DNA of 64,000 nucleotides from a virus, in the IMG/VR virus record IMGVR_UViG_3300005264_000040, positions 62,001 to 126,000 of that record. One strand, written 5' to 3'. Position numbers and translations under genes: made by a program. Of the stretch, positions 190-60,005 are shown one piece after another (the stretch's first letter is position 1; every line of letters starts with the position of its first letter). The notes beneath the pieces were generated by a model. The model ran no database searches and was not told the DNA's origin. It was given only the letters and a program-made list of their open reading frames with translations.

Positions 190-227
190 ACCATGTGCAC
201 TAAAAATATAGGAACGTCTGTAACCCG

Positions 228-315: not shown

Positions 316-448
316 TGGATTTGCGACGTTTTGGAACGCAAATATGCTAATCTATTGCGTTTTGAATATCATAAAAAATATGGTAAAATAAATTAAAGTT
401 TCAAAATAAGCAATGAAAGCATAAGATGTCATAAGATAAACGTTAGTT

Positions 449-3290: not shown

Positions 3291-3310
3291 AAAAAGGTTG
3301 GTGATAACAA

Positions 3311-6425: not shown

Positions 6426-6462
6426 TTAAGATAAATTAAAAATATTTTAGGAGGTGTTTTTA

Positions 6463-18673: not shown

Positions 18674-18702
18674 ATTATATCATAAATATGGAAATCTTTT
18701 CT
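18674..18702 (-). promoter_or_regulatory. Promoter for the packaging operon
   Basis: TGATATAAT (-10 at 18674-18679) with AGAAAA 17 nt upstream. Its TGA is also the stop codon of the gene that ends at 18680. Confidence 0.6.
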
Positions 18703-21700
18703 GAGTAACTTTTCTAAATGTGTTGTTTTCTTCTTGATATTCAATTTCTATTCCATCAAGTTGATCGTTTATAATTAGTTTTGCATAAGTGAATCTTAGA
18801 CTTAGCAACCCATTTTTGACTAAATCCATGTTAAAATCTTTTTTTATACTGTCCCATAAATAAAGATAATCATTAATAAACTCAGAACGCCAACCATAGA
18901 ATATCACTAGTTCTTTTGGAGCTATAGAAATATTTCCGCGTCCATCTAATAAAATATTTTTTACAATACTATTAGTAGTGTTTTCAACAATTGTCACTGG
19001 AAATCTGAATACTTCTTGCGAAACAGAACATGTCAATGCATTCTGAATTCTTACAACATTTTTTAATTCAAAAAGCATAGTGAATTTCTTTTCATCAAAA
19101 CCCACATTTGCAATATTTGTATATATGTCTTTTCGGGTTTTTGAACAATCCTTTTTATACCCTAATAAAATCAATTGATATCTTGAAAATCTCTTTATAT
19201 TAATGTCAAAACTTTCTATTAACTTTTTATATTGACTTAATTCATTGTGTATATATAGTTGTAAAGCAGTTGATTGCATTTTTGTATTGGCTTTTATATT
19301 AGCAGAATTAATATTATATTGTGATATTTCAGATTTTAAAGAAAAATAGTTTTTATGAGCTATAACAAACTGTATGTCGATATTTAAAGACAAACTTAGA
19401 AGTTGCATAAGAATTGCATTTAATTCCTTTTCAAATAATGCTACGTCTTTTTTATATCCTTTAAGAACTCTTTTTATTGGCAAAGAATACGATACTAAAT
19501 TCATATCTATGAAATTTGAAGAAATATCATATTGTGTTACTTTATTTTCTATAAATAATTGATAGTGTTGTAAATTATGTAAAGCTGAAACTATGCGAAC
19601 ATCTGTATCAGAATATTGAAGTGCTTTAGAAAATACAGGATCAATATTCAATTTTTGTAATTGTATATAATAAACAACTACATACGAATCAATTTCATTT
19701 TCTTCAGTTAGGGTTGATGGGACTATTTCACACTCTAATAACTTATTATTATTTTCAGTTGGATATTGAGCGATTTCTACATCATCTATAAATATTGGTT
19801 CTGGTTCCCTAGAAAGTAATTTGTATATAGCGTTAATATGTATAGGTTCTGTTTTAGGGGCAACAGAATGTTGGAAAACTGTGCTTCCTATAAAAACTTG
19901 TGGTAATACCCATACTAGTGCATTTATGTTTCTTAAGGTTCGATTTGTAAAAGTAGGATTATTCAAAAATTGTTTAGAATTAAAATATAAAAGTCCTTCA
20001 GTTAAATTATTAGTATCATTTCTTAAACCTAAAACATTAAAAGCCGGATTGAGGAAACGTCCTGTCCTAGCCAATTTAAAACTTGAAGTTAAAGCTAAAG
20101 TATAATCTCTTTTTTGAACTTCTAAAAAAGTATCTTCTTGAATTAATCTTTTTTCTGGCTCATCAACGTGTTTTAAAAAAGTTATATAATTATTTTGTTT
20201 TCCAACAAAATATTTCGAATTAGTACTAATATTGAAAAAATCATAGTAATAATTATAAGGAGTAGAATTATCAAGATACGTTCGAACTAATGTATCGGAT
20301 ACGTTCGGGTCTAAAGAAAAATATTCTTCATATATAATTTTCAAATTAGAATCCAAAGAGGAATTACTTGCTGCCTTAATTGCTCTAAAAGTATTAGGAG
20401 AATTGATGTAACAATAATGAATAGAATAATTAAATAGGAATGTAAAATCATCTATACTAAAACGATTATAAAATATTATTTCTTTATGAGTAATAGTTGA
20501 AAACGTATCTAAATCATAGTAAATTAAGAGGAGCCCATATTTTCCTTGTTCATAGTCTTTAACCATAGCTCCTACAATCAATACATTAGAATAAACTTTA
20601 TTATCATATATCAATGTATCAAGAGGTCTGAAAAACATGTATCCTTGTGCTCCTGAATATCCGAAATCATTTACATGTGTTGGAAAACCTATACTATTAA
20701 CAGTATCAGTTTCAGGATCATATATATATTTTGATATGGGGTTATATATTACATTATAATTTGAAGGATCTTTAAAAAATAAACTAGGAATATTTGAATA
20801 ATTGCTTCCTATTTGAGTAACTTCTAAATTTACAGGATCTAAACGATATTTTGAATTGCTATAAAAAAATTCGTAAGTATTAGGGTTAAAAAATACAAAT
20901 GGAGTTATAAAATTATAAGGAGTAGATTTAAATCGTATGCTAGAGTTATTTTGATTTAGCTCTATTAGATATTTAGAGGCTGAAGTATCTCCTGTTAATT
21001 TTACGATCGAATCTAAAAGTTTGAAATATTTACGATTTGGATCAGTTTTACTTACAAATAAACCATACAGACCAAATATTGCGTCAATGCCAGAATTATT
21101 TTCTCTAAGTAGTAAATACATATATTTTTTATCATTAGCTTCTGCCAGATAATAAAGATCAAAGTCATTAGTTATTGCTAGGTTATCGTCTCCGTTTATA
21201 TATTGTGTTTCTTTAAGACTTACTTTTAATCCTTTTAATTCGTAAATTTCAACTTCGCAGTTTAGTGTATTAGTAGAATCAGAATGTATAGGAATGTAAG
21301 TTGGTATATCTATATTTTCTCCAAAAACAATCCAATTTAAATATAATATGTCATTATTTCTTTTATAATAAGAAGATTCACTAATATTGTCAATTGTAGT
21401 TTGTGTTGGCCACGGATAAACAGTTTCTGAAGTTGGATTTGTTGTCAAATCATACAAATGAATTCCATCGGTAGCTATTAAATAAAATTTGTATTTATTC
21501 GTAGAAAACCGCCATCCTGTATATCCAGCTCCAAGCATATATGTAGGCCAATTTGAAATTGTGCTTTCTGCTTTTATGTCAAATGAAACAAATCCATCTG
21601 TAGGGTTAGGACCTACTAAAGCATCTACTACTGAGATTTTATTTGTAGATGTATCATATAATAATAAAGGTATATAAGGCATTGAAGTAGATTTTATATC

Positions 21701-22576
21701 TCCTGCAATATCCCCAGCTGTCAAAGCTGTATATACAGGGCTTTTAGAACCCCACACATAATCAATGACGTGCATTGCTGTAATATCCATTTGAGATGGA
21801 TCTTCTGGCAAATATAATTGAAACCTAATTATTTTTGTAGTAATTAAAATATATTCGTAATGGTCATCGTCTATTTTTCTAATTGCTCTAAATCCGGATC
21901 TATTTTTCCCATTGTTTGTATAAAAATAAGTAGAAGAAACTTCTGAACCTGCGGGATAAATTGCTTGCAACGGAATGGGTGAATCAGTTGTGCTAGTAGC
22001 CCAATGAGCAAGACCATATTTTTCGTATTTATGGTTTCTGTATAAAATAAAATAATAATCATATACTGGATGTTTGAATAATTCATGTATTATTCCAGTT
22101 GTTGCATTATTATGAGTATAAATAGTAGAAGTATTGTCTAGTGCTCTTATCGTATAATATTTCCCAATATTAAGTGATCGAGATGTAATAGAATACCTTT
22201 CTACAACATCAAGACCTGCTTCTCTTGCTAACAAATTCCACAACATTATGTTAGCATAAGAAAGATCAGGTTGGGAGTTTGAACCTTGTGCGTGATAAAG
22301 TTCTTTTACGTGAAAATTATAATCTTTGTTATCTTCTAAATTCATCCAACCACAATAATAAAGAGTTTCGTCAGGATTAGTATAATTTAATGTTTGAGTC
22401 AAATTATTAGGTGTATTGTAAAAATTCAAAACAAAGGAATCTCCGGGATTTAGACATATAAAACTAGAAGCAAAATTAAACTTTAAATACCAATCATTGT
22501 GTGATGACAAAGATTTAAAAAAATGAAATTCGGTGCGAACTCTTTTATTGTTAATCCAAAACTCCAAGCCATACAT
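18680..22576 (-). CDS. Giant propeller/solenoid family protein, member 1
   Basis: 1298 residues, ATG 3 nt after the stop of the upstream family member. The first 850 residues are beta-rich with many Tyr/Asn/Asp and repeated Y-D-x-x-T-x-x-I-type blades, resembling beta-propeller proteins. From about 985 come solenoid-like rungs with Q-Y (LQHYQLF, VTQYDIS, ISQYNIN). The last 110 residues carry the family C-terminal module: IAPKELVIFYGW, then a helix, then LIINDQLD. It lacks the R-D of NDxRD. No signal peptide. Probably a virion surface or fibre component; inferred. Confidence 0.75.
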   Translation of the reverse strand: MYGLEFWINNKRVRTEFHFFKSLSSHNDWYLKFNFASSFICLNPGDSFVLNFYNTPNNLTQTLNYTNPDETLYYCGWMNLEDNKDYNFHVKELYHAQGSNSQPDLSYANIMLWNLLAREAGLDVVERYSITSRSLNIGKYYTIRALDNTSTIYTHNNATTGIIHELFKHPVYDYYFILYRNHKYEKYGLAHWATSTTDSPIPLQAIYPAGSEVSSTYFYTNNGKNRSGFRAIRKIDDDHYEYILITTKIIRFQLYLPEDPSQMDITAMHVIDYVWGSKSPVYTALTAGDIAGDIKSTSMPYIPLLLYDTSTNKISVVDALVGPNPTDGFVSFDIKAESTISNWPTYMLGAGYTGWRFSTNKYKFYLIATDGIHLYDLTTNPTSETVYPWPTQTTIDNISESSYYKRNNDILYLNWIVFGENIDIPTYIPIHSDSTNTLNCEVEIYELKGLKVSLKETQYINGDDNLAITNDFDLYYLAEANDKKYMYLLLRENNSGIDAIFGLYGLFVSKTDPNRKYFKLLDSIVKLTGDTSASKYLIELNQNNSSIRFKSTPYNFITPFVFFNPNTYEFFYSNSKYRLDPVNLEVTQIGSNYSNIPSLFFKDPSNYNVIYNPISKYIYDPETDTVNSIGFPTHVNDFGYSGAQGYMFFRPLDTLIYDNKVYSNVLIVGAMVKDYEQGKYGLLLIYYDLDTFSTITHKEIIFYNRFSIDDFTFLFNYSIHYCYINSPNTFRAIKAASNSSLDSNLKIIYEEYFSLDPNVSDTLVRTYLDNSTPYNYYYDFFNISTNSKYFVGKQNNYITFLKHVDEPEKRLIQEDTFLEVQKRDYTLALTSSFKLARTGRFLNPAFNVLGLRNDTNNLTEGLLYFNSKQFLNNPTFTNRTLRNINALVWVLPQVFIGSTVFQHSVAPKTEPIHINAIYKLLSREPEPIFIDDVEIAQYPTENNNKLLECEIVPSTLTEENEIDSYVVVYYIQLQKLNIDPVFSKALQYSDTDVRIVSALHNLQHYQLFIENKVTQYDISSNFIDMNLVSYSLPIKRVLKGYKKDVALFEKELNAILMQLLSLSLNIDIQFVIAHKNYFSLKSEISQYNINSANIKANTKMQSTALQLYIHNELSQYKKLIESFDINIKRFSRYQLILLGYKKDCSKTRKDIYTNIANVGFDEKKFTMLFELKNVVRIQNALTCSVSQEVFRFPVTIVENTTNSIVKNILLDGRGNISIAPKELVIFYGWRSEFINDYLYLWDSIKKDFNMDLVKNGLLSLRFTYAKLIINDQLDGIEIEYQEENNTFRKVTQKRFPYL

Positions 22577-22579
22577 AAA

Positions 22580-24121
22580 TTACCACCACCTTACTTCTTT
22601 CGAATCGCGACTATCATTATAAAAGATTGTGGTTTTTCCGTAATAAATATCTAAAACACCCTCGGGATTTCGAGTATATTTTTTTTCATTATTCACATAG
22701 ACATTTCTTACAAAATTCTTCACGCTCCACATCTTTTCAAGATGTTTTGCATGACCGTATATAATCAAAGGTTTATTCGGTTCTAGTGTAGGAAATTCTT
22801 GATTATTTACTTCTAAATTTTTCAATATTCTTCCACTAATATTCAATATTGTAGTTGAGTCTATCATTTGTTCTTGTGAAACTGATACTTTTATATATTT
22901 TTTGTCTTCAGTTATAATAGATATTTTTTCTAACAAAACCTGTATTTGCATTAATCGAATTAATGTTGTTTGTGATGTTATGAATAACGAAGAACCCATA
23001 TCTTCTTTTATTACACTGATTTCTAAGAATTTGCTTGTAAAAATCGAATTAGCATTTATTTCGGCTTCTATATTTTTGCTTTTTTCCCTTTTGACAGTAC
23101 TTATAGCATTTATGTTGAGATTTAGAATATTGTGTATTAAAGTATTTGAAATAAGAAAAGATTGAGCATTTTCAGGTGAAGCTAAAGATCCACCTATATT
23201 CATAGAATCAATTATGTTTTTGCTCATAAAAGAATCTAAAAAAATTGATTTGCTTACATGTACATTAAACTGCGAATGTAAAACTCGATTCACTTTGTCA
23301 TAAATTATTATTATTTCTTTATCTATATCATGTATAACATAAATTATTTTGTCACTGTATATAGAACTTCCAATCTTATCTGTATTGTTAAATCTATACA
23401 TATTTATATTTTCAGCATCTGTTAAAGCAACAATAACAGAATCAACTTCCTCATAATCTACACTTATATATGCTCCTTCATTATTTTGTTGAAAAGTGCA
23501 TTTAATCAATTTGAAAATCAAATTAGTTCCTTGAGTATGTTTCACTATTTGCCAAATAGAAGTCGTCGTAATAGAACCTGAAGTAACACCTTTTGCTTCA
23601 AAAGAGCGTTCATCTAAATCTACAGTTTCTGGTAAAGTATATCTCATAGTTGCTAGGTTATAATGCACATATTGTCCTAAATCAAAATTGGAAGTTATTT
23701 CTACAGGATTATTTTGTTCTATTCGAGCTGTTTTCCATAAAGAATAATTAGTTTTATCAAAATATGTAACAATTAATGAATTAAAAATATTCATTGAATA
23801 GTGCAATGTAGAAATAACATCTTTAAAGTAAGGATCTGCAAAATTTGATATAGTTACATATTTTATTTTTCCGTATGTAGAAGGATCATAAGTTATATAC
23901 AAAATTTGATTAGGATGAGATTGAATGTTCAAATAAGTTATATCTTTTATATCAATAACTTCTTCGGTAGAAGTTAGCATTTCCAATGTGACTGAATAAG
24001 GATTATAATTTATATTCGGAATTTTAAAAAAACTATAATAAGAAGTCGAGCTACCTTTGATTGAATTATGAACATAATAAACTTGATCTCCATATGAAGA
24101 TGAAATAGTTATTCTAAACAT
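22580..24121 (-). CDS. Propeller/solenoid family protein, member 2
   Basis: 513 residues, ATG after AAAGGAG. Beta-rich N-terminal half with propeller-like strands, a middle of short alternating hydrophobic rungs, and a complete C-terminal module: LEPNKPLIIYGH, an amphipathic helix, NFVRNVYVNN, LDIYYG and FYNDSRDSKE. This last module is nearly the same as in the 680-residue member. Part of a four-gene tandem array on the - strand. Confidence 0.75.
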   Translation of the reverse strand: MFRITISSSYGDQVYYVHNSIKGSSTSYYSFFKIPNINYNPYSVTLEMLTSTEEVIDIKDITYLNIQSHPNQILYITYDPSTYGKIKYVTISNFADPYFKDVISTLHYSMNIFNSLIVTYFDKTNYSLWKTARIEQNNPVEITSNFDLGQYVHYNLATMRYTLPETVDLDERSFEAKGVTSGSITTTSIWQIVKHTQGTNLIFKLIKCTFQQNNEGAYISVDYEEVDSVIVALTDAENINMYRFNNTDKIGSSIYSDKIIYVIHDIDKEIIIIYDKVNRVLHSQFNVHVSKSIFLDSFMSKNIIDSMNIGGSLASPENAQSFLISNTLIHNILNLNINAISTVKREKSKNIEAEINANSIFTSKFLEISVIKEDMGSSLFITSQTTLIRLMQIQVLLEKISIITEDKKYIKVSVSQEQMIDSTTILNISGRILKNLEVNNQEFPTLEPNKPLIIYGHAKHLEKMWSVKNFVRNVYVNNEKKYTRNPEGVLDIYYGKTTIFYNDSRDSKEVRWW

Positions 24122-24142
24122 ATTACAAGCTCCTTTCGCAGG

Positions 24143-27100
24143 CTATTTGATTAATTGCTCAAATTGCCATTTGTCTAATATATTTATGGTTTTTATTTTG
24201 TTTTCCTTCAAATCGCGATAATCATTTAGCACTATTGTTTTTTGAACATCATATATATCTAAAGAACCTTCTGCATTCATTACATTTTTTATTCCATTTT
24301 TACTATAATAGTTTCGTATCCAAAATCTATCTTTTAATTCTTGATAGATTTCAAAGTATTCATCTAAAAAATAAAATGCACTATCTTTAGGTAATACTTT
24401 TATATGTGGCAAATTATATATAGGTTTTCCGCTTATATTAACAACTAGCTTTAAATCTATCAAAATAGCTTTGCAAATTTCTACTTCTATTTTTCTAAAA
24501 GACTGAACAAATAAAAACTGAATCCCTCCACAATTTTCCAATTTGACAGGGGGACAACTATCTTCTGTCGCGTATTGAGATACGAATATATCTGTATAAA
24601 TAGGAGGACAATTGTCTTCTGTTGCATGCTGTAGTACATACACATCAAAGTTTATAGAAGGATGTACGTATTGCATTAAATCAGCGAATTCTATATCAAT
24701 AGGAGGACAATTATCTTCTGTTGCATGCTGAATTAAATTAGCAAACTCAATGCTAATCGGAGGACAGTTTTCTTCTGTTGCATATTGCATCAAATCTGAA
24801 AATGTAAAACGCACAGGTTCTTTTGTATTGAATACTGAATATTGCGATATTCGAATATCCATATCAATAGGAGGACAACTATCTTCGTCTTGTGTTGCAT
24901 ATTGCAATAAATTCAAAGTAAGATATTTTGAAACATCAGTATAAGGCATTTTATAATCTTTATTTGTATATTCTAAAACAGTGCATTTAATTGTATTTTT
25001 AGGTTTAATTTCGAAAGGAGTTTTTTCAATATCTACATATTGAGTTAAATTAGCAAACTCTATATCAATAGGGGGACAACTGTCTTCGTCTTCTGTTGCG
25101 TATTGCATTAAATCAGCAAACTCTATATCAATAGGAGGACAACTATCTTCGTCTTGTGTTGCATATTGCATTAAATCAGCAAACTCTATATCAATAGGAG
25201 GGCAACTGTCTTCGTCTTCTGTCGCGTATTGCGTTAAATTAGCGAATTCAATATCAATAGGAGGACAACTGTCTTCATCTTCTGTTGCATATTGAGTTAA
25301 ATCAGCGAATTCAATATCAATAGGAGGACAACTGTCTTCATCTTCTGTTGCATATTGTAATAGAGTAACAGGTTTAACATCAATAGGGGGGCAACTATCC
25401 TCATCTTGTGTTGCGTATTGCATTAGATTTGCAAACTCTATATCAATAGGAGGACAGCTATCTTCGTCTTGTGTTGCATATTGTAATAGAGTAACAGGTT
25501 TAACATCAATAGGGGGGCAACTATCCTCATCTTGTGTTGCGTATTGCATTAGATTTGCAAAAGTTATAAATTTAGAAACATCAGTATAGGGCATATGATA
25601 ATCTTTATTTGTATATTCTATTATGACACATTTAATTGAATTGTGGGGCCTTTTATCTAAAGGTGTCTTTTCTTCATCTATATATTGAATAAGATCTGCC
25701 AAGTCTATTTTGTGACTTTCTTTTTTATGATAAATTTTACGTTCCCACTGACACTCGATTGATGCATGAGGTCTTTTGTCTAAAGGTGTTTTCTCTTCAT
25801 CTATATATTGCATCAAATCTGGAAATTCTATTTTCTTTTCTTTTTTTATATGATAAATAATAGGTTCATAAACACATTCAATTGGAATACCAGGCCTTGT
25901 TACTTTATGAAGAACAGTCTGATAAAGATCAAACATATATATAGAACGGTTTGTATCTTCTCCATAACTCGCAACAACAAAAGAAGGGCCTGCTTGGTTT
26001 GTATATCTTTTTGTGAAAACACTTAAATATTTCGCATTTATTATATTTAAATCATAAAATAAATGTATCGGATACACTATATCTGGATATCCGTAGAAAA
26101 TATTCGTTTCATCATGATGATCGGGAATTTTTATTATATAAACTCTTTCATCTATTGTACTATTAGCTATAATAAAATATCCATATATATCAACTGTATA
26201 ATAGCTAAAATCAAAGTTTTCTATATCAGGTATTTTTGTTTGTAAAATGTCTGATATATATCCTACGTGATAAAAAAACTTTTCTAATCCTCCATTATTA
26301 TCTATTGAAAATTTAATTTGTTTAGTGTGTAAGGTATATATGGAATGGGTAGAACTAGGATATTTTGCATAATAAGTTAATCTTCCAAGATAAGAGTTAA
26401 AACGAACAGGATTGCTGGTATTAAACATCCCATTCAAACTTTCTCTTATACCTTGCCCATCTTTAGGATATAAAAGATAATATTGAAAGTTATGATCTTC
26501 TACATTATATTTCATGTTTGCAATTTCTATAAAATAGTAATCCGGAATATCTATTGGAGTTGTGCTACCATTATAATTTTCCTTGATTAAAACAAGGTTT
26601 TGAACACCGCCTGTCCATATAAACCATTGATATGGTTTTGCTTTTGATTGCAAAACCATAACAGGTAAATAAAGAGGTTCGTTTCTATATTCTACATTAT
26701 TAGTAATATCTTTTATATAAACAGTATAAAAATCATCATTTGCAGTATATTGAACATATGTACTGTAGCCTATTACGCCTTGAGATATATCAAAAGCGGA
26801 AGAATCAGGAAGATCTGCATATTGTATATTTTGATTTACCAAATCCAAAAGAAGAATTTTATTTTGACTTCTACTTAAAACCATTACATAACCATTAAAA
26901 GGCCAAATATCATTTCTATCATCTAACCACGTATCGTCTGGAGTAACAAAAAGAGAACCTTCGCCTATTGGATCCACGCCTCTTCTTCCATATTTTATAA
27001 TAGCATTAGTTGGTTCCATAGCAGTCATTATCCACCAGTCTTCCAACAAATAAGTTCTATGCAATCTGAAAGGTACTAAATTACTAGCATTTGGATCATT

Positions 27101-27475: not shown

Positions 27476-27507
27476 TTTATATCCACCCCTGTCTTTATAT
27501 CCTTCTT

Positions 27508-27536
27508 ATTATAACATCTTCACTCATAAAAATGCC
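27508..27536 (-). promoter_or_regulatory. Promoter for family members 3, 2 and 1
   Basis: TGTTATAAT (-10 at 27508-27513) with GGCATT (27531-27536), spacer 17. Confidence 0.7.
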
Positions 27537-27548
27537 AATAAACAATTT

Positions 27549-29591: not shown

Positions 29592-29614
29592 TCTATTCGA
29601 CCTCCTTTTTTAGT

Positions 29615-29643
29615 ATTATATCATTTAAAATTTATATGATGCT
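29615..29643 (-). promoter_or_regulatory. Promoter for family member 4
   Basis: TGATATAAT (-10 at 29615-29620) with AGCATC (29638-29643), spacer 17. Confidence 0.7.
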
Positions 29644-29646
29644 ATT

Positions 29647-29677
29647 AAAAAAAAATTCGGGATATACATCCCGAATT
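29647..29677 (-). terminator. Intrinsic terminator after RNA polymerase genes
   Basis: Perfect AATTCGGGAT / ATCCCGAATT stem followed by nine T residues on the - strand. The beta' stop codon lies inside the stem. Confidence 0.9.
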
Positions 29678-32600
29678 AGTACTTTCCTTTTTCGCCTTTC
29701 CCAAAAGTAACACCTCTTGCCCATTGAGCTATTGGTGAATAACTATGTTTCTTTGTTTTTGCACCTGTCATAGCTGAATGAGGAACAGTTTGTCTTAAAT
29801 ACCTAAAACTCATTCTATGTTCAAAATCATCTGCAATTGTAGGTTGTTTTGCTGAACCTAGTAATAAATTCTTGTATTTTATCTTATCGTTATAAACAGT
29901 AACTTTTTTTATACCTGCTTTTTCTAATTCTTCTTTTATATCTTCATCTATTAAAGTTCCTTTTGAAATATGAGCTGTGTCATCATATAATCTATGTCCT
30001 ATTGCATCTTTTAAAGGGACTGTCATAGAAGAATCTCTATTTAAAGAATCGATATAATTCCAATTTACGACATCTCCTGTTTTTAATTTATGTTCATAAG
30101 GTCCTGGATCCACTACTACAGCTTTATCAGTAACAGATCTTACAATAGTTTCCGTTACTTGAGGATTCATCTTTTTATCTATTTGGTTATATACAATATC
30201 ATTTAATTCATTGAGCATTGCTTTTTGTGCTTCAGGCACACCTCTTAATCTTGCTAATTGTTTGTGAGGCAAAATACCATGGGACAGTTTGTCTCCTTTT
30301 TTTACAAATTGTCCTTCCTTCACAACTAATCCTAAACGTTTAGGGATTTTGTGTATTTTATCTTTGATTTTCACTTCATAAACTGAAGATTTTTCTACAA
30401 TTTTTTCAACTTTTCCACTACGTTCTGCAAGTTTTGCAAAATTAGGATTACTTTCAGGCATTCTTAATAATGTAGAAACTTGTGTAAATACATCCCCTAT
30501 ATTTTCATTTCCTGCTCCTACTACACTACCGGAATGAAACAATGACATAGAGGTTTGAGCTAAAGGTTCTGTTACAGCTTGTCCTGATTTTATCCCTATA
30601 TTTTCTCCTATTTCAGGTAATTTATAACTTTCATCAATACCAAAAGATTTAGCCGCTATTCCTTCAGGTAATGTTGATGTTAAAGGGGATTTTATGTATA
30701 TAGACGTTATTCCGCTTTGTTTTAAATCTTTAATCATTTCAGCGGTTACTTCTTCGCCTTTTTTATATTCTGTTTTCTTACCTTTTATATTTTGAGCTAA
30801 AAACCTTCCTATATATTTTTCATCTACATTTACTTTTAAACCTGGATCTTTGTCATCATCTTTATCAGCAACAACTAAGGTCATTAAAGATTCTAATAAT
30901 TCTTTGTTCAAAGCTCCAGGTTCAGAAACCATAGATTTTCTTGCAATCATACCAGAACGAGCACCATACCCTACACTTAAATATTCAGCAGGAGTTAAAC
31001 CTTCTGCGAAACTTCTTTTTACTACAATTGGTGCAGGTTTTCCTTTTGCGTCCTGAACTAATAAAGGAGTAGCTGCAATTTGCCTTATTTGTCCAATACT
31101 TCCTTTTGCTCCTGACATCGACATGTTGTATAATCCATTCTCCTTATATTTTTTAGAACGTTTATCTTCAAGGGATTTATCTAATTTCTTTTGTAAATCC
31201 ATAGCTTTTTCTATTTTTTGTTTATAAGGAAGTTGATTTATTTTATCCACTTCTTCTTTGATTTTTTTGACATCATCATCTTCTTCTTTAATATCATCAA
31301 TACCTACACTTAATCCAATTCTTGTAATTGCGAATCTTCCTACATCTTTCCAAGTTGAGAATATTCTATTTATCTCTTCTCCTAATAAACGCCCTTTGGA
31401 TTTTTCAATAGCTAATTCATTAGCTAATTGTTGAATCATTTTTTTGTTCCATGTAGAATTTTTATTTGGTTCTATATATTTTCTGTAGAATTCTCTTTTA
31501 AGATTTTCATCTTGGATAGTTAATAAAACATCCATAATCAAATGCCTTCCTGCAGTTGCACTATACCTGTATCTCGGATCTACTCCTAATATTTCCACTG
31601 TATCATTCCATTTTATTTGGTTATTTAAAAATCTATCATACAATTCATCATAACTTTTTACCATTATTTTTCTTCCTGGTTTTTCTGGTGGTTCTGTCAC
31701 TCTAAATATTCCATTTAAATATTCCATTGAAGGCAAATGCATTATTTGTTTTGTTCCAGGTTTTAAAAGATTATTAGAAGGCAACATTTTAAATGCTTCT
31801 TTTCTTGCTTCTTCAGTAACCGGAACATGAATTCCCATCGTATCACCATCAAAATCAGCATTAAAGCCTTTTACAACCAATGGATTAAGTTGAACAGCTT
31901 TCCCTTCTATAAGTCTTGGCTTAAAAGATAATATAGAAAATTTGTGTAATGAAGGCGCTCTATTTAACATTATAGGACGTTTTTTCATTTCTTCTTGTAC
32001 AATATCCCAAACCATATCATTAGGATCTTTCAATAATTCAGTAATTCTTTTATTGTCATATCCCATTTTTTTGAGTTCTTTCTTTATAAATGGTTTGTAA
32101 AGATTCAAAGCAACGGGTTTAGGAATACCAGCTTCATCTAATTCTAAATCAGCACCCGGTTCTATTAATCCTGTTCCTGAAAGTTCTTGCCTTTTCTTCA
32201 CTACTTTTGACTGAAAATATCCAGATTTAGGAGATTTACCTGGAGCACCTGCCACATAATGTAGAGCTCCGGCTGGTTCTTCTTGTTTGCTGTTTTTCAT
32301 AGGAGGATTACTTCCAACAACAGCTCCTACAGCTTCCAATAATTTTTGTCTATATTTTGCTGCACGTTTAGGGGATAAATTATCTTTCATTTCTTTGAAA
32401 CGTTGGTTTAAATTAATCAAATCTTGATATACATAATTTATTTGAGAAACTCTTACATCTGATTTATCGGTGGGAGAAGGATACACCGGCCTAAATTTTG
32501 GTGGGATTACTGGGATTTTAGAAATAACTAAATCTTCAGGTTTTAATTTATTTTCCTTCAACATTTTTAACATTTGCACTTTTCTTAAAGCTTTGTCAAG

Positions 32601-34097
32601 AGTTCTTTGTTCATTACTATTTTTCAAATGTTCTTCTGCTTTTTTTAATTCTTCATCCACATTTATTTTTGACAATAAATATTTAACAGCTTCGCCTCCG
32701 CCAATTGCTTTATCTTTTGGAGATACTTTATTTACATCTACTAATTTACCATCTTTTAAGACCATTTTACCTTCCATGATTTTTCTTAAATCTTTTTGTT
32801 TTAAATCTAATAATTCAGCTATTTGTTTTTCGAATAAAGGATTTACAATAGGTTCTGCTAATTCTATTTTCCCCCATTTATCTCCTTTAAGGCCACCTAA
32901 TTTATGCGGGTCAAACAATCCACCTTTTTCTGGTAAAAGGTTGTGGCCTGCTAAAATTTTAGCGTTTTCTACTTCACCTGCGGCTAAATTATCTACATCT
33001 TTATCGGTAATAGGTCTATATTTAATCTCCTCTTTGTTTTCTTCTGAATAAATACCAGCACCAGTTAAATAGGCTCTAAATTTTTCATATGCAAAAGGAG
33101 TTTTCATGGTTGAAGGAGGGGGTACTTCCCCGTTCTCAATGGCCCTCCAGAATTCATCATTTTTCTCAGCTTTATAGGTGGCCATTTCACGCAGGTTTTC
33201 CCTTGCGTTGTGCGCTACCATCCCGTAGAATGTTAGCGCATCTAAAGAACGAGCACCCCCACCAGCACCAGTTCCTTTTAAAGGTTGTAAATCTGAATCG
33301 TAAGCCCAATATTCGCCTCTTGTATTAGTTTTCTTATCTACTTGTTGAGGAAGTTTTATAAAATATTGATATCCCACCAAAGCCGGTGTTTCCATTTCAC
33401 CTTCTCCAGGAATATATATTTTTTCCTTATCTTTAATATTATATTTTTTCATTAATTGTTTTGTATATTCTGTCATATCCTTTTCCGTATCAAACAAAGG
33501 CACTTTAATAGGATGTCCAGCTTTAACTGCAGCTTTCCCAGCTACAGTCTCTAATATCTGCGATGGATTGATACGTGAAGGCAACGAAAGAGGATTTAAA
33601 AGGACATCGATAGGTTTCCCTTTTTCATCTTTAGGCATTTCGTCATCAGGTAATATTAAAGATACAGTACCTTTATTCCCGTGTCTTCCGGTCAATTTAT
33701 CTCCAACTTGCATTGGAGATTCATATTTTACCATAACACGAATTTTATCTCCTAATCTATATACTTTTACTACTTCTCCTATTTCTTTATGTTTCCATAC
33801 GATACTTTTATCTACATAATCTCTTAAAACTTTATCTGCAAAAGCACCTAATATTTTATCATTTTCTGAAGGTACTCTTTCTCTCAAAACTACTGCAATA
33901 GGATCCCCATTTTCAAGTTTAATTCCTTTTTTTGCAATACCTTCATTATCTAATTTTTCTAGTTGGTTTGCACTATATTTAGTTGGATAATATGCTTGAT
34001 ATTTCTTTTTATCAAGAATAGTTTCTGGTGTAATTTCGATATCGTATTCTACCAAGTGTTCAGAAGTCATTTTTTTTGCTGCAGTTTCTGAAAGCAC
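29676..34097 (-). CDS. RNA polymerase beta C-terminal part fused to beta' subunit
   Basis: 1473 residues from a GTG that has no ribosome binding site. Residues 1-345 are the beta C-terminus: GRHGNKG (about 134-140), LNPLSLPSR (about 168-176), then the terminal domain ending TGAGI. Beta' follows without a break: GLFDPHKLGG near its N-terminus without the usual zinc cysteines, KKRPIMLNRAPSLHK, the catalytic NADFDGD (about 744-750), the bridge helix (FAEGLTPAEYLSVGYGAR, about 1030) and the trigger helix (EPLAQTSMSLFHSG, about 1180) keeping the His. The beta part picks up at AIVLSE, in a different frame from the N-terminal gene. All catalytic aspartates remain. It makes phage-directed transcripts, presumably with the sigma-like protein at 49197. 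Confidence 0.92.
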   Translation of the reverse strand: MLSETAAKKMTSEHLVEYDIEITPETILDKKKYQAYYPTKYSANQLEKLDNEGIAKKGIKLENGDPIAVVLRERVPSENDKILGAFADKVLRDYVDKSIVWKHKEIGEVVKVYRLGDKIRVMVKYESPMQVGDKLTGRHGNKGTVSLILPDDEMPKDEKGKPIDVLLNPLSLPSRINPSQILETVAGKAAVKAGHPIKVPLFDTEKDMTEYTKQLMKKYNIKDKEKIYIPGEGEMETPALVGYQYFIKLPQQVDKKTNTRGEYWAYDSDLQPLKGTGAGGGARSLDALTFYGMVAHNARENLREMATYKAEKNDEFWRAIENGEVPPPSTMKTPFAYEKFRAYLTGAGIYSEENKEEIKYRPITDKDVDNLAAGEVENAKILAGHNLLPEKGGLFDPHKLGGLKGDKWGKIELAEPIVNPLFEKQIAELLDLKQKDLRKIMEGKMVLKDGKLVDVNKVSPKDKAIGGGEAVKYLLSKINVDEELKKAEEHLKNSNEQRTLDKALRKVQMLKMLKENKLKPEDLVISKIPVIPPKFRPVYPSPTDKSDVRVSQINYVYQDLINLNQRFKEMKDNLSPKRAAKYRQKLLEAVGAVVGSNPPMKNSKQEEPAGALHYVAGAPGKSPKSGYFQSKVVKKRQELSGTGLIEPGADLELDEAGIPKPVALNLYKPFIKKELKKMGYDNKRITELLKDPNDMVWDIVQEEMKKRPIMLNRAPSLHKFSILSFKPRLIEGKAVQLNPLVVKGFNADFDGDTMGIHVPVTEEARKEAFKMLPSNNLLKPGTKQIMHLPSMEYLNGIFRVTEPPEKPGRKIMVKSYDELYDRFLNNQIKWNDTVEILGVDPRYRYSATAGRHLIMDVLLTIQDENLKREFYRKYIEPNKNSTWNKKMIQQLANELAIEKSKGRLLGEEINRIFSTWKDVGRFAITRIGLSVGIDDIKEEDDDVKKIKEEVDKINQLPYKQKIEKAMDLQKKLDKSLEDKRSKKYKENGLYNMSMSGAKGSIGQIRQIAATPLLVQDAKGKPAPIVVKRSFAEGLTPAEYLSVGYGARSGMIARKSMVSEPGALNKELLESLMTLVVADKDDDKDPGLKVNVDEKYIGRFLAQNIKGKKTEYKKGEEVTAEMIKDLKQSGITSIYIKSPLTSTLPEGIAAKSFGIDESYKLPEIGENIGIKSGQAVTEPLAQTSMSLFHSGSVVGAGNENIGDVFTQVSTLLRMPESNPNFAKLAERSGKVEKIVEKSSVYEVKIKDKIHKIPKRLGLVVKEGQFVKKGDKLSHGILPHKQLARLRGVPEAQKAMLNELNDIVYNQIDKKMNPQVTETIVRSVTDKAVVVDPGPYEHKLKTGDVVNWNYIDSLNRDSSMTVPLKDAIGHRLYDDTAHISKGTLIDEDIKEELEKAGIKKVTVYNDKIKYKNLLLGSAKQPTIADDFEHRMSFRYLRQTVPHSAMTGAKTKKHSYSPIAQWARGVTFGKGEKGKY

Positions 34098-36030
34098 TAT
34101 AGCATGCTGTTTTTAAATTTTTACCTGTTGTAAGCTGATTCTTTTTAGAATAATTACTTTCTGCCAAAACAGTTCCTGGAGATACTTTATCTCCTTTTTT
34201 GATTTTAGGAGTATGTCTAATGAAACTCGTAGGACCCGTTTTCAAATATGAGGCCATATTAAAGGTCTTAATAGTACCGTCTGGCTGTTTTACTTTGATA
34301 GAGTTTTCAGACACGTCAGAGACGACGCCAGACACATCTGAGACGATATTAGTTTCAGTTGCAAGTAATTTTCCTACATCTGTTTTTCCTTTTTGAGTAG
34401 CTTGTACTAAAGGTATCTCAGCATCTTTTAATGGGATAGCTTGTGTCATCTGTTTTGCTGCCATAGCAGCCCTACCTCCCTGCAATGATTGTAAATAAGG
34501 AATTTGCAAGGTGGTTGCATCAAATAATTGATCTACATCTGTAAAAATATGAGTTACATCTTTTCTATTTACAACATCAAGTTTTCCGTGATTTAATGCT
34601 TTTACATCATTTTCTTTTGCTATCCATTTTATGTTTTTCACTTTGCCTTTATCATCTTTTTCTATTTTAGCTTCTCCATATAATGCAATAACATATTTAT
34701 CATAGTCAATTGGTCTTACCAGTTCATAATCTTTCTTCTTAATATTATAAAGTTTAGCTGCCAAATCTTTCCCTTTTCCTTTTTTAACAACTTGAGTTTG
34801 CATAGTTTTATACAATGTTACACCTAACTTATCCGATTCAGGTGTATGAACAGGATCTACAACTCCAAATTGATAATCGTTTAAAGACCTATCCATTGTA
34901 GTAATTTGTTGTTCGTCTTCCAACCCGCCTTCACCTGTTAATATAACTTTATTATTGTGTGCTAAAACAGAGAGAGGGTTATAACCATCCACTACTTGAG
35001 ATAATGATGAAGTTTTAAAAAATTTGAATATTGTGTTTGAAAATGTTTTTTTCAAAAATTCCAAATCTTTTATAGAAGATATAGAATCAACTTTATCTTC
35101 TAACGATTTTTGTATATATTTCATTTGATTTGAAAGTTTTTCTCCTAGTATATCTTCTATTTCAACAACTTTTTTGTATTTAAAATTAGAAGTTTCTGTA
35201 GGTTCTTTTTTACCTCCAGCTAAATCTATTGCAGATTTTATTAAATCTACTATATAATCTAAAGAAACTTTTTCGTGGGGAACATCAATGTTTAATTGAT
35301 TAACTTCAGGATCCATTATAGTTCCATTGAAATAGTCTTTAATTTTATCTACCATATAAGAATGTTCCCTTTTTTCAGGGTCCTTAAATATAATCTTATA
35401 AAAAGTTTCTACTGCTTGCTGAGAAGCTGTATTCAAATCTCCTTTAACATGTTTCAATGCATCATCAACAACATCTTTTCCTAACTTCTTTTTTAAATTT
35501 TCTACGCTATATCCCATACCAATTAAGAATGGGATAGCATCCATTGTTTTTGACATAAATAATTTAATTGTGCCTTTAATTGGATTATAAATTATTTTAA
35601 AATTCAAACCTTTTTCAAGGAAAGCCCTTGCTTCGTATTCGTCTCTTGAAGTTAATTTGAGATAGGATCCAGCTTTAAGTCTTAATTGAGTTGGAACAGA
35701 ATACTGTGTTCCATCTACAATAAAAGTCCCATGAATTCCCATAATAGGAAATTCCATAAGCGTAATCGTATCTTCATCTATTATTTTATTATTCTTTTTT
35801 AATTGTAATTTTGTATTAAGTTTAGCAGTAAGACTTCTATCAGTATTAAAGATTTCTTCAAGTTCTTTATAGTCTTTATAAGCTTCAGCCATATCTATTT
35901 TATAATCAACTAAATCAATAATTTGTGTTTTACCTTTAATAGGGAAAACTTTTTTTAATAATTGTTCTGCAGTTCTGATTAAAGAATTATTGACTCTTTC
36001 AACTGTTTTTTTAAGACTATTTTCAGACAT
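34060..36030 (-). CDS. RNA polymerase beta subunit, N-terminal part
   Basis: 656 residues, ATG after AAGGTGG. Recognisable bacterial beta segments: MGIHGTFIVDGTQYSVPTQL (about 94-113), NPLSVLAHNNKVILTGEGGL (about 350), the RQAVPL-equivalent GGRAAMAAKQMTQAIPLKDA (about 525-545) and NQLTTGKNLKTA near the end. The final 14 or so residues (CYSAFRNCSKKNDF) are an out-of-frame reading of the next gene. Between GKNLKTA and AIVLSE the normal MPWEGYNFED segment, with the conserved acidic pair (E813-D814 in E. coli), is absent from the DNA. Overlaps the next gene by 38 nt. Confidence 0.9.
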   Translation of the reverse strand: MSENSLKKTVERVNNSLIRTAEQLLKKVFPIKGKTQIIDLVDYKIDMAEAYKDYKELEEIFNTDRSLTAKLNTKLQLKKNNKIIDEDTITLMEFPIMGIHGTFIVDGTQYSVPTQLRLKAGSYLKLTSRDEYEARAFLEKGLNFKIIYNPIKGTIKLFMSKTMDAIPFLIGMGYSVENLKKKLGKDVVDDALKHVKGDLNTASQQAVETFYKIIFKDPEKREHSYMVDKIKDYFNGTIMDPEVNQLNIDVPHEKVSLDYIVDLIKSAIDLAGGKKEPTETSNFKYKKVVEIEDILGEKLSNQMKYIQKSLEDKVDSISSIKDLEFLKKTFSNTIFKFFKTSSLSQVVDGYNPLSVLAHNNKVILTGEGGLEDEQQITTMDRSLNDYQFGVVDPVHTPESDKLGVTLYKTMQTQVVKKGKGKDLAAKLYNIKKKDYELVRPIDYDKYVIALYGEAKIEKDDKGKVKNIKWIAKENDVKALNHGKLDVVNRKDVTHIFTDVDQLFDATTLQIPYLQSLQGGRAAMAAKQMTQAIPLKDAEIPLVQATQKGKTDVGKLLATETNIVSDVSGVVSDVSENSIKVKQPDGTIKTFNMASYLKTGPTSFIRHTPKIKKGDKVSPGTVLAESNYSKKNQLTTGKNLKTACYSAFRNCSKKNDF

Positions 36031-36071
36031 AGAAAATGCACCACCTTCTTAAAATTGTTTTCTTCAATGGT

Positions 36072-36100
36072 ATTATATCATAAAAAGGAAAACAGTCGCT
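36072..36100 (-). promoter_or_regulatory. Promoter for RNA polymerase genes
   Basis: TGATATAAT (-10 at 36072-36077) with AGCGAC (36095-36100), spacer 17. The -35 lies within the stem of the upstream operon's terminator. Confidence 0.65.
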
Positions 36101-36115
36101 ACGTGCGACTGTTTT
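36089..36115 (-). terminator. Intrinsic terminator of the gene at 36127
   Basis: Perfect 11-bp stem AAAACAGTCGC / GCGACTGTTTT with a five-base loop, followed by CCTTTTTAT on the - strand. Confidence 0.85.
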
Positions 36116-36126
36116 GTTATATTGAT

Positions 36127-37026
36127 TTAATAATCATAATCCTCATATTCTTGGTATGAATTATCATAATCATTGTATTCATCATAAATTGGCTCTTCGT
36201 TCTCTACAATAGGAGCATGTTGGCCTATAGTTATATCTCTGTCTTCACCTTTATACTCCTTACCACTAGAATATGTTTCTTGGGTACCACCTACAACTTC
36301 ATCAAAGGTTGCTATTTGCGAATCTTCCACTTGTTCTAATTGTAATTCAAGGAATTCAATAGGACTTTGTTCAGATTCTTTATCGTATCTATAAAGCAAT
36401 TCAATAGCTTTTAAAGCGAGAGAAGCATTTCTAGGATCTGACATATTAGCCTTTAATTGATCTTGAATAGCTTTCATTCCAGAAGCAATTAATAATTTCA
36501 TAAAATCTTTTGGAGCAACATCAGGAATTAAACCTAAAGAAAGTTCCGCATCCATTCTTCTTCCTGTATATACTAAATTTAATTTTTCTGCATATTGTGC
36601 TCCCATATGATTAATAATATCAAGAATTTTATCCATATCAACACCAGTTGTATCCCAAAACACTTTATGAAAAGCTTCAATAGCAGGTGCAGGATAAAAA
36701 CCATAACCTGCTTGAGATATTCTAGTGGATATTTTGTCATAATCTTCAGTTCCGTCTAATTCCATACTTCCTATCAAAACTGTTCTTAAATCTTTATTTA
36801 CCAAAAATCTATAAAACAAAATATCAAAATCTGGGTCAATTGCTTCATTCCTTAACCATTTCAAAAGACGATATACCCACTCATTTGGTGGGGTCTTTTC
36901 TAATACTATTTTAAATTCGTCTTTATTTATTGTAGGCAAACTCATTTTTTTTAATTCTCTATTAATTTCATTGAAATTCATACCGTAGAGGAAAAAGCCT
37001 TGTAACATTCTTAGGTATGGCACCAT
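36127..37026 (-). CDS. Unrecognised helical protein with acidic Tyr/Asp tail
   Basis: 299 residues, ATG after GGAGG. Helical, Leu-rich N-terminal 220 residues, then an acidic tail ending in repeated YDxY/DYD units (YDEYNDYDNSYQEYEDYDY). It is a single-gene unit with its own promoter and terminator, directly upstream of the RNA polymerase genes and transcribed the same way. An acidic unstructured tail recalls nucleic-acid-mimicking transcription factors such as RNA polymerase delta, but there is no sequence evidence for that; a head or packaging role is equally possible. Confidence 0.7.
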   Translation of the reverse strand: MVPYLRMLQGFFLYGMNFNEINRELKKMSLPTINKDEFKIVLEKTPPNEWVYRLLKWLRNEAIDPDFDILFYRFLVNKDLRTVLIGSMELDGTEDYDKISTRISQAGYGFYPAPAIEAFHKVFWDTTGVDMDKILDIINHMGAQYAEKLNLVYTGRRMDAELSLGLIPDVAPKDFMKLLIASGMKAIQDQLKANMSDPRNASLALKAIELLYRYDKESEQSPIEFLELQLEQVEDSQIATFDEVVGGTQETYSSGKEYKGEDRDITIGQHAPIVENEEPIYDEYNDYDNSYQEYEDYDY

Positions 37027-37061
37027 GTTAAAACCTCCGTTTTGACAAAACGCTCAATCCT

Positions 37062-37090
37062 ATTATATCACATGTTTTGACGTTCTTGCC
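37062..37090 (-). promoter_or_regulatory. Promoter for the acidic-tailed protein
   Basis: TGATATAAT (-10 at 37062-37067) with GGCAAG (37085-37090), spacer 17. Confidence 0.65.
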
Positions 37091-37105
37091 AAAAATACTA
37101 AAAAT

Positions 37106-37127
37106 AAAGGCCTTTTGACAGGCCTTT
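37106..37127 (-). terminator. Intrinsic terminator
   Basis: AAAGGCCT / AGGCCTTT stem followed by ATTTTTAGTATTTTT on the - strand, at the end of family member 5. Confidence 0.85.
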
Positions 37128-39126
37128 AAAGTAATCTTTTGTACCCTTTTTGTTTTAACTCTTGATAATCACGTCTATCATTAATAAAAATATATCCCAG
37201 TTCAACCATTATATGAATTTTTTCATATGGATTTTCGGAGGTTATAACTATTTTGTTTCGTTTTGAAAAGAAAGAAATCAAATTTCTTTTTAAAAATTCT
37301 TCAATGAGCTCGTCAAAATAGCCTATGAAAGCTATACTTCTTTTAGGTTCCAAACGTTCGACAAAAGGTAAATTAGTGTATATAGAATTAGTATTATTAG
37401 TTATAATAGTGAAAAGTGCTTTTTGTTCGCGAGATATTTTTGCATCTATCGTATTTGAAGCTTTGTTTTTTAAAATGAAATATGAATTTTCAATAGGAAT
37501 AATATTTGTGCTTTGAACAAAAATTCTTGTGTCTATCATAATACTTGTTTCTTCACCTAAAGCTTTAACTTGGCAATCAATAGATAAAGGTCGCATACCA
37601 TTCTCATTAACTACAATCATTCCTATATCTTTTTTTAATCTTACATAATTTGTATAATCTCTATGAATAGAATTATAAACATCAAAAGAATTTTGTTGTT
37701 TTAAAATAGGGATTGAATATCCTGAGATAAACAAAGAATCGTTTTGCGGGGATGCAATTTGGGTTTCAATCGCGTTTTGTATATAAATTTGAATTTGCGA
37801 AACATTATTTATAATTATGTTTTTTTGAACCTGCGGTGGCATTTGACTTATATTTGTATAATGAAAAATATAAACATTGGAATCATTTGCCTCTCCCATT
37901 AAATATGTTTCATCGGAATTTATAAATACACCATATGTTTGTGTTGGATTTTTTGGATACAAAGAATCAATAGAAGTATTATATAAAGGAGCTTCAAATA
38001 TTTTCATTCCTTCAGAAAGATTTAATCGTACTACTGTTAAAGTTTCAGAATTAACATCTTTTTTTATAAAAGTTAAAATATAAGCATTTCCCGTATACTC
38101 CAATTCTCCCAACGATGTATGTGTGCCAAAATGTTTTGGAAAATTCACATAATCAAAAGCATCTTCAATATGGATAGTTCTTAACAACCCTGAATATATA
38201 GTGTTGTTTTGGTACGAAATATCAATTTTATATATATATATTTTTTTATTAATAGCATCTCTTGTATATATATATAAAGTTCTATTTTCATAAACACCAA
38301 CAAAATTAGCATCAATCAATGTTCCTGTTATGTGTATGTTTTTTGAAAAATCAACTTGTCCCGTAACGGTATTAATAGCTTCAACATACCAACCATTAGC
38401 ATCAGTTCTAATTATTATATAATATTTAGGCTCAGTTCCTCCTACAGGATCAAAAAAGAAAGCTCTAATTACATAAGATATGTTAAAGTGGTTCAAAAGA
38501 GAAACGTTATTGTTACTAATTTCAAAAACATATAATTGTTGATAAAAAACAAATAAAAATTTATCTTTCAATAAATAGTTAGGAGCTCGCCAATATTGGT
38601 AATGCTTTAATACCTGAGAGGAGATTGTGTATAGACTACTTAAAGTACCGTTAAGAGGATTATCTTTAACATAATCATATTTATATAAAACACTAGAATA
38701 AGAATCACTCGTTGCAAGGATTAAAAAACTTTGATTTATATCATCATATTGTGGGGTTATATTTCGTGTAAATAATATTTTTCCATCTATTATTAAGTTA
38801 TGAAATCTTTTTGTTGTAGGGTTTGTAGGATATATAAATTCATTCGCAATACCATCTGTTGTTATAAAAAAACCATTTGAAGATAAGTTTGTTAAATACA
38901 ATGCGTTATGATCTTTATCATACAAAAAACTATATTTTGGATCAAACGGAAATACAGTAGAGGAATTAAAGGCAATTCCATATATACTATGGAATTGCTT
39001 GGCATAATAAAAAGGAGGATAATCTCTCAATGCATCTGCATAATAAGAAGATAAAGATTGATAACCTGTAAACGAATAATAATCATTAATATTGAATAAA
39101 TATAAATATTTTGACAAAACAGCCAT
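37126..39126 (-). CDS. Propeller/solenoid family protein, member 5
   Basis: 666 residues, ATG after GAGGTG. About 420 residues of beta-rich, Tyr-rich propeller-like sequence (repeated Y-x-Y-x-I-x and F-x-F-x-I-S-N patterns), a short rung region (QIQIYIQNAIETQI), and the C-terminal module: ERLEPKRSIAFIGYFDEL, NLISFFSKRN, KIHIMVELGYIFINDRRD. Follows member 6 with a 16-nt gap and ends in a strong terminator. Confidence 0.75.
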   Translation of the reverse strand: MAVLSKYLYLFNINDYYSFTGYQSLSSYYADALRDYPPFYYAKQFHSIYGIAFNSSTVFPFDPKYSFLYDKDHNALYLTNLSSNGFFITTDGIANEFIYPTNPTTKRFHNLIIDGKILFTRNITPQYDDINQSFLILATSDSYSSVLYKYDYVKDNPLNGTLSSLYTISSQVLKHYQYWRAPNYLLKDKFLFVFYQQLYVFEISNNNVSLLNHFNISYVIRAFFFDPVGGTEPKYYIIIRTDANGWYVEAINTVTGQVDFSKNIHITGTLIDANFVGVYENRTLYIYTRDAINKKIYIYKIDISYQNNTIYSGLLRTIHIEDAFDYVNFPKHFGTHTSLGELEYTGNAYILTFIKKDVNSETLTVVRLNLSEGMKIFEAPLYNTSIDSLYPKNPTQTYGVFINSDETYLMGEANDSNVYIFHYTNISQMPPQVQKNIIINNVSQIQIYIQNAIETQIASPQNDSLFISGYSIPILKQQNSFDVYNSIHRDYTNYVRLKKDIGMIVVNENGMRPLSIDCQVKALGEETSIMIDTRIFVQSTNIIPIENSYFILKNKASNTIDAKISREQKALFTIITNNTNSIYTNLPFVERLEPKRSIAFIGYFDELIEEFLKRNLISFFSKRNKIVITSENPYEKIHIMVELGYIFINDRRDYQELKQKGYKRLL

Positions 39127-39142
39127 ATTATTACACCTCTTT

Positions 39143-40609
39143 TTATTCTATTTTTATATAAAGTTTTGAATACGGATCTGAATCGTTCTTTATTATTCTT
39201 CCATCGATTTTAAAGTAACTTACAAGATTTCTTTCTAAAAGAGCATAAGCAACTTTTTCTTGCCTCCCGGAAAGTGTAATTGTAGTATTAGATTCAATTT
39301 CATTTAAGATAGGAATGTTTTTATAAATAACATTTCTGTTATTTATAATAATGGTTTGATAATCATGTTTTTGTTTTAAATTTAAGTCTTCAACATTAAT
39401 ATCAGTTCTTATTCCATTTTGTATATTTTTTAAATGATATACAAAATTTTTATAAACTTCATTTACTGTTTCTCTTATTTGCAAAATTAATTCGTTTTCG
39501 TTTATAAACTTCGAAAATGAAAGAACTACATTTTTCCCCATTGAAACAGGCAAAACACTGATTTTTATTTCTTTTGTAGAAAAATCTATTATATATACAT
39601 GAAGTTGTTTTAATTTTATGTTGTATTTCAAAGCTAAAAGTTTTTTATTAGTTGGATTATAATAAAAGTCTTCTATAAAATCAGGATAAAAATTAGTTTT
39701 AGGTATTGGGTACATTTCTATTACAGTATTAGTTGTTTTATTTATATTCCAAAAGCAATATTCTGAAACTAAAATATTATTGGATACTATTTTCCCTTCA
39801 GTAATTAAATATAAATTAGAACCTTCTTCTTTAAAATTAACTACTTCTGAAATATCTATCTTATAATTTTGATAAACTTTTGGCACAATATTTGTTTGGT
39901 TAGTACCATTTTGTACTTTCCCTTTTTTTGTCAAATAGCGATTTTCTGACAATCTGTATATTATTTTGTCATCAACAAAAGTATTATTGGTTAAATCACT
40001 ATATCCATATACTACATTATTTTTATAATCTTTCAGCATATTCTTTTTATTTATTATTCTATAACGCAGTTTATCCTTGTATATCATAGTTTCTTTTTGA
40101 ATTACACTTGAATAAAATAGATAAGGTTCTATAAAAGGCAAAAAGAAGATTTTTCCTTTTGTGTTTTTGTATGTTGGATCTAATCCGAATCCTCTTACAA
40201 TACTTGTGATATCGACTTGAGAAGAATCATTAGGATTAACTAACACAACTTTATTTTCTTCTAAAATATTAGAATTTTTTGTATATACTATTTTTATTTC
40301 AGAATTATAATTTATAACACCACTCGGAATTAAATCATCGAAAGGTTGAAAAGTTTTTACTACATCACATGTATTAGGATCTAATTCAAAGATAAGAGAT
40401 TCACCTCTAATGTAATTTGTTCCTTTTACCTCATAGTAATTTCGAGAACTAGAAGGCAAAGTTGTTGTATTTACAACAAGATTGGAGCTAGTATCATATT
40501 TAATGATTTTATTGTCATAAAAAATACAAATTAGATTACCATTCATTTTCACCGCAATATTTTTTTCGGGTATTGTATTTTGAATTATTATATTACTTAA
40601 AACACTCAT
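39143..40609 (-). CDS. Propeller/solenoid family protein, member 6
   Basis: 488 residues, ATG after GGGAGG. Beta-rich, Asn/Lys-rich N-terminal 390 residues with repeated I-x-K-Y-D-T-type strands, then a shortened C-terminal module: NEIESNTTITLSGRQEK, LLERNLVSYFKIDG and KLYIKIE, ending before the NDxRD sequence. It is the smallest intact member. Own promoter, divergent from thymidylate kinase. Confidence 0.72.
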   Translation of the reverse strand: MSVLSNIIIQNTIPEKNIAVKMNGNLICIFYDNKIIKYDTSSNLVVNTTTLPSSSRNYYEVKGTNYIRGESLIFELDPNTCDVVKTFQPFDDLIPSGVINYNSEIKIVYTKNSNILEENKVVLVNPNDSSQVDITSIVRGFGLDPTYKNTKGKIFFLPFIEPYLFYSSVIQKETMIYKDKLRYRIINKKNMLKDYKNNVVYGYSDLTNNTFVDDKIIYRLSENRYLTKKGKVQNGTNQTNIVPKVYQNYKIDISEVVNFKEEGSNLYLITEGKIVSNNILVSEYCFWNINKTTNTVIEMYPIPKTNFYPDFIEDFYYNPTNKKLLALKYNIKLKQLHVYIIDFSTKEIKISVLPVSMGKNVVLSFSKFINENELILQIRETVNEVYKNFVYHLKNIQNGIRTDINVEDLNLKQKHDYQTIIINNRNVIYKNIPILNEIESNTTITLSGRQEKVAYALLERNLVSYFKIDGRIIKNDSDPYSKLYIKIE

Positions 40610-59981: not shown

Positions 59982-60005
59982 CACCCAAAAAGTACCTCAA
60001 ACTCA

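Follow-up and report, generated by a model that had tools for sequence, protein, structure and literature searches.

The analyzed window comprises 64,000 nucleotides, at positions 62001-126000 of the 177,768-bp virus record IMGVR_UViG_3300005264_000040. We identify the source, an uncultured phage of ~178 kb with its own multisubunit RNA polymerase, as contractile-tailed, since the neighbouring genes include terminase, head, sheath, portal and a Baseplate_J wedge:

Window 3311-4921, head protease
Window 6454-7344, major head protein
Window 10067-11929, sheath
Window 15782-17407, terminase large subunit
Window 29676-36030, multisubunit RNA polymerase
Window 49197-49931, sigma-factor-like gene
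Window 52355-53137, endolysin-like gene
Window 53632-55572, portal
Genome 125549-127147, Baseplate_J wedge

The RNA polymerase is a distant relative (~32-35%) of its counterparts in Vibrio phage D181 and Salmonella phage Arash. Strong GGAGG ribosome sites, the presence of TATAAT promoters and a low G+C content may suggest a Bacillota-like host.

An expanded family of eleven genes was found in this genome, ten of them carrying a module of ~90 residues at the C-terminus. The genes proposed in the initial annotation were all present on the minus strand, and when the HMM of the C-terminal module that it had suggested, built from the seven aligned C-termini, was run on all ORFs of the genome, three new genes outside the window were also retrieved, making the family bigger than first noted (genes are named here by their first coordinate):

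18680-22576, minus strand, member of 1298 aa, module at ~18734-18994
22580-24121, minus strand, member of 513 aa, top-scoring module at 22583-22855
24143-27475, minus strand, member of 1110 aa with a beta N-terminus, ~20 Q-Y repeats (19-21 aa) and the module at ~24203-24448
27549-29591, minus strand, member of 680 aa with the module at ~27582-27857, next gene 3' of the RNA polymerase
37126-39126, minus strand, member of 666 aa, module at ~37153-37410
39143-40609, minus strand, member of 488 aa, truncated module at ~39143-39355
56256-57143, minus strand, partner 3' of 57055, with a short shaft plus the module (~56325-56582)
57055-59718, minus strand, shaft gene of 887 aa with exact 14-residue Q-Y repeats, without module
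Genome 137790-146255, outside the window, 2812 aa with module
Genome 146337-152303, outside the window, 1988 aa with module
Genome 152310-155717, outside the window, 1128 aa with module

Taken together, the ten genes with a module and the shaft gene 57055 amount to 11,865 codons (35.6 kb, 20% of the genome). The claim that seven genes share the C-terminal module held for most of them, but not for 57055, which has none, and only in part for 39143, in which it is truncated; similarly, the interval 18680-40609 does contain the members attributed to it, although the RNA polymerase genes and gene 36127-37026, also inside it, do not belong to the family. The natural start of 56256 may be an internal ATG. 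Two other candidates were discarded: gene 46006-47631 showed a weak partial module match and by eye corresponds to a spike/gpV-like protein, and the module match of genome ORF 174409 was doubtful.

Homology of the C-termini was evaluated by a leave-one-out procedure, in which a profile HMM built from the other nine members was tested on the omitted one, with composition-shuffled targets as control. All ten members were recovered at the C-terminus, with E-values of 3.5e-21 (22580), 1.9e-17 (27549), 1e-13 (37126), 1.3e-13 (152310), 1.1e-7 (24143), 1.6e-6 (56256), 1.7e-6 (18680), 1.7e-5 (146337), 2.8e-4 (39143) and 3.8e-4 (137790), while the best shuffled targets reached ~0.03-0.32 and none fell below 0.03. 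Conservation is near-invariant at one Asn of the first strand and at the N-D-x-x-D signature, which closes the module just past the last strand. The other modules are only ~21-41% identical to the first, as might be expected if the shared C-terminus reflected chance or compositional similarity; the probability of this explanation is nevertheless negligible, being refuted by the leave-one-out HMM and further contradicted by the shuffles, the extreme C-terminal position in each case and the conserved N-D-x-x-D.

Among closer pairs, 22580 and 27549 shared 33% identity across their final ~150 aa, and the tandem paralogues 39143 and 37126 are 36% identical in their final 70 aa. The module of 39143 is devoid of the last strand and stops short of N-D-x-R-D. 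A second, weak copy of the module was apparent inside 152310 (residues ~653-733). Comparisons between members indicated that the C-terminal region alone is common to all ten, the remaining homology corresponding to the shaft of 57055 and 137790 and to one extra domain in 137790 and 146337; no common attachment domain was detected at the N-termini. The view that the N-termini diverged while the C-terminal module was kept was thus borne out by both the leave-one-out profile and these comparisons. A domain of ~200 residues occurs in three copies, in 137790 (residues 415-610) and 146337 (residues 61-261 and 549-741), and by eye has the look of a lectin-like jelly roll.

In AlphaFold2 models the module was compact and predicted with high confidence, both at the C-terminus of 22580 (pLDDT 88-95) and in the shaft plus module of 24143 (~79-96 per ten-residue block). 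The order of elements agreed in the two models (long strand, short strands, helix, hairpin, long strand, helix). A fold search with both models returned nothing at E<=0.001, which is weak evidence as the queries hold long low-confidence stretches. The module is best described as a small, predicted alpha/beta domain with no known counterpart.

Neither the module nor the whole members had homologues in Pfam, PHROGs or NCBIfam, nor among PDB sequences, and tblastn of the members against phage records was also negative. The module was absent from ~100 related-phage contigs and, in a separate check, from Arash and D181. Viral contigs and prokaryotic genomes, scanned with exact peptide patterns that distant relatives would escape, yielded no homologue. 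Within what was searched, the module would be private to this lineage. The proposal of an undescribed family is thereby supported, and no strong match to a known fibre family was obtained for the members in Pfam, PHROGs or NCBIfam. None of the N-terminal domains matched a known binding fold in profile searches.

A Tyr/Asn-rich beta N-terminus, attributed to all members by the initial annotation, was supported by composition in most of them, but not in all. The first 400 residues of most members contained 6-11% Tyr and 7-12% Asn, compared with 5.3 ± 1.3% and 6.1 ± 1.4% in the other genes of the window, and beta-favouring residues accounted for 32-38% in members vs. 29.9%. The Q-Y rungs, in turn, are real in a few members but not a common trait: the repeat signal was strong in 137790, outside the window, as well as in 24143 (period 21, z 23) and 57055 (periods 14/28/42, z 5-7.5); it was weak in 18680 and 56256, and the Q-Y motif was absent from 22580, 27549, 37126 and 39143. 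In 24143 the repeats measure 19-21 residues, those of 21 residues being near-identical and encoded by a 63-bp tandem array of 8.3 copies (25036-25561, minus strand); each of the latter was modelled mostly as one ~12-residue strand plus a loop (AlphaFold2, pLDDT ~57-75). In 57055 the period is exactly 14 residues, with periods 14, 28 and 42 prominent, a Q-Y spacing of 14 found eleven times and the consensus I-D-[IVA]-x-x-L-Q-[YFHW]-[ST]-x-L-x-x-x (in shorter form I-D-[IVA]-x-x-L-Q-Y-S-x-L-x-x-x). This protein shares homology with the shaft present in the 2812-aa product of 137790 (BLAST, E 1e-8). In the pair 57055/56256, a gene for a shaft alone seems to precede one for a shaft plus module, and a recent frameshift is not demonstrated, since 57055 ends in frame within repeat-like sequence. 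The propeller mentioned in the initial annotation is an impression, and no member matched one in Pfam or among PDB sequences.

The gene context was also considered. In the block 18680-40609 the members lie 3-99 bp apart, packed together with terminase and polymerase genes, and the portal gene likewise shares a compact block with members. The outside trio (genome 137790-155717) comes after the baseplate block. Six members are placed around the RNA polymerase genes, within a single compact minus-strand block, an arrangement compatible with virion proteins that are not exposed, i.e. internal head or ejected proteins delivered alongside a virion RNA polymerase. We regard this as improbable, given the beta-rich composition with raised Tyr and Asn, the repetitive shafts, the occurrence of paralogues of very different length and the lectin and beta-helix proteins found at the equivalent place in relatives. 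In the nearest polymerase relative (37% identity), the ORF directly 3' of the polymerase gene, in the place occupied here by 27549, matched Peptidase_M26_N (8.5e-9) and, below the cut-off, the GLUG motif, and is of a beta-helix surface-protein type. In a second relative, IMGVR_UViG_3300031576_000004 (L094), Laminin_G_3 and TIG proteins lie just 5' of the polymerase, and the polymerase neighbourhood thus repeatedly holds surface proteins. These relatives support a surface or host-recognition role, as initially proposed, as the most likely one.

Two of the Laminin_G_3/TIG proteins from L094 share their last 83 residues (75% identical) and are unlike in the remainder, providing a parallel for a kept C-terminus with swapped displays in the same neighbourhood. 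In contrast, their C-terminus was compared with the module and found unrelated, it may be part of a lectin-like domain, and the set comprises two clear members plus a weak one.

Promoter-like sequences TTAGCA-N18/19-TATAAT, followed by a ribosome site, were located 5' of the head-gene operon (window 447), 57055, 152310 and others (10 sites vs. ~4.5 expected). This promoter-like sequence and the block packing, both shared with structural genes, lend modest support to a putative late, structural expression of the family. The same features argue against proteins acting in infection outside the virion, such as secreted or cytoplasmic host-takeover or superinfection proteins; no signal peptides were seen by eye in the members, their size is very large, and this option appears quite unlikely.

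The organization of the members recalls that of tentaclins, in which a variable N-terminal binding domain and a repeated beta spacer precede a conserved stretch of the last ~100 residues proposed as virion anchor, these parts being a C-type lectin head, Ig spacers and a C-terminal Ig domain, respectively (Int J Mol Sci 2023, PMC10743442). A variable N-terminus and a conserved C-terminus of ~100 residues are present here too, as in tentaclins and Hoc, and the working principle would be alike. In contrast, the module is predicted as alpha/beta, and a single genome contains eleven genes encoding up to 2812 aa. Members were not classified as tentaclins/Hoc: the C-terminal Ig-like anchor was unmatched in Pfam, PHROG and NCBIfam, and no member matched a C-type lectin domain or Ig spacers, divergent versions of which could lie below profile sensitivity. 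Large, beta-rich host-recognition proteins, as the members would be, are also represented by the propeller-bearing receptor-binding proteins phi11 Gp45 and PhiKZ gp131 (PMC4901313); Gp45, however, is attached through an N-terminal stem, unlike the C-terminal docking that we infer here.

Considering the above, we favour, with a probability of roughly one half, a virion array of adhesins or fibres with variable displayed domains and a shared C-terminal docking module, probably sited on the tail or baseplate, where it would bind the host. The best reading of the family is that of a lineage-specific one whose C-terminal module would serve in docking or assembly. According to this proposal, an ancestral gene would have been duplicated again and again, the displayed N-terminal beta domains would have diverged beyond recognition, and some members would have gained beta-repeat shafts, lengthened through tandem duplication. 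The alpha/beta module would in turn have been retained because it docks every member onto one same virion component.

Fibres usually attach through the N-terminus and not through the C-terminus, which counts against this proposal, as do the truncated module of 39143 and its absence from 57055. So do the failure of every N-terminal domain to match a known binding fold, the unrelatedness of the L094 C-terminus to the module and the frequency of the promoter-like sequence (10 sites, with ~4.5 expected). The main rival to the docking reading, which we consider possible but rather doubtful, is that the members are virion fibres attached elsewhere, the module acting at the distal end of the beta-shaft as a folding nucleus, trimerisation cap or maturation chaperone. 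Phage fibres commonly bear conserved C-terminal folding domains, such as Peptidase_S74 chaperones and foldons, and a conserved C-terminal module common to otherwise unlike fibres is a trait of the S74 type as well as of this family. Moreover, the module comes after beta-repeat shafts in several members, its weak internal copy in 152310 sits between beta regions and is as compatible with a shaft cap as with a dock, and the monomer models have low confidence in the shaft strands, as expected of an oligomer. Unlike S74-type fibres, however, the members gave no profile match to Peptidase_S74 or another known fibre chaperone in their C-terminal region, and were not assigned to that type. A shared N-terminal attachment domain, expected for fibres attached elsewhere, was not found either, and the module is kept in 22580, 27549 and 37126 despite there being no clear shaft. 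The common docking domain of the initial annotation is plausible, and the evidence accommodates it and a folding or trimerisation cap alike.

More tentatively, the module could represent a novel kind of virion docking domain, lacking known relatives by fold, by which one phage would mount at least ten interchangeable giant adhesins on a single type of site; the 14-residue beta-shaft repeat (I-D-I-x-x-L-Q-Y-S), adjustable in length, would likewise be new. If the array is confirmed, a single phage particle would bear a toolkit of unlike host-binding proteins that all fit one socket, a modular display of adhesins of natural origin. Such a system would also offer a handle on host recognition in a large, little-known clade of phages that encode their own RNA polymerase, and would provide structural biology with a new module and a new shaft repeat.

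Other features of the genome were recorded. A reverse transcriptase of 340 aa (genome 36604-37623, plus strand) carries QGTYTSP and YTRYADD and is retron-like, not DGR-type; as it is the sole reverse transcriptase found, has the retron-type QGxxxSP motif and is accompanied by no nearby TR/VR pair with family genes, a role of these as DGR targets was rejected. An ORF of 3203 codons (genome 163867-173475, minus strand) had no significant family match. A near-perfect palindrome of ~85-100 bp, with core TATTATATATATATAATA and arms GGGGTGC/GCACCCC, is present in five copies, and none of the related-phage loci compared contained it in full:

Window 212-328, palindrome copy
Window 59998-60092, palindrome copy
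Genome 3277-3370, palindrome copy
Genome 43463-43576, palindrome copy
Genome 155921-156020, palindrome copy

The copies are next to points where transcription blocks start or end, for instance 5' of the head operon, in the gap separating the divergent blocks 59718/60229 and 5' of gene 152310. Finally, the beta and beta' subunits of the RNA polymerase apparently form one open frame of ~2000-2900 codons in many related phages (contigs L012/L064 and L093-L169; e.g. L131:7004-15490), and are split in the window at 34060-34097, with an overlap of 38 bp.
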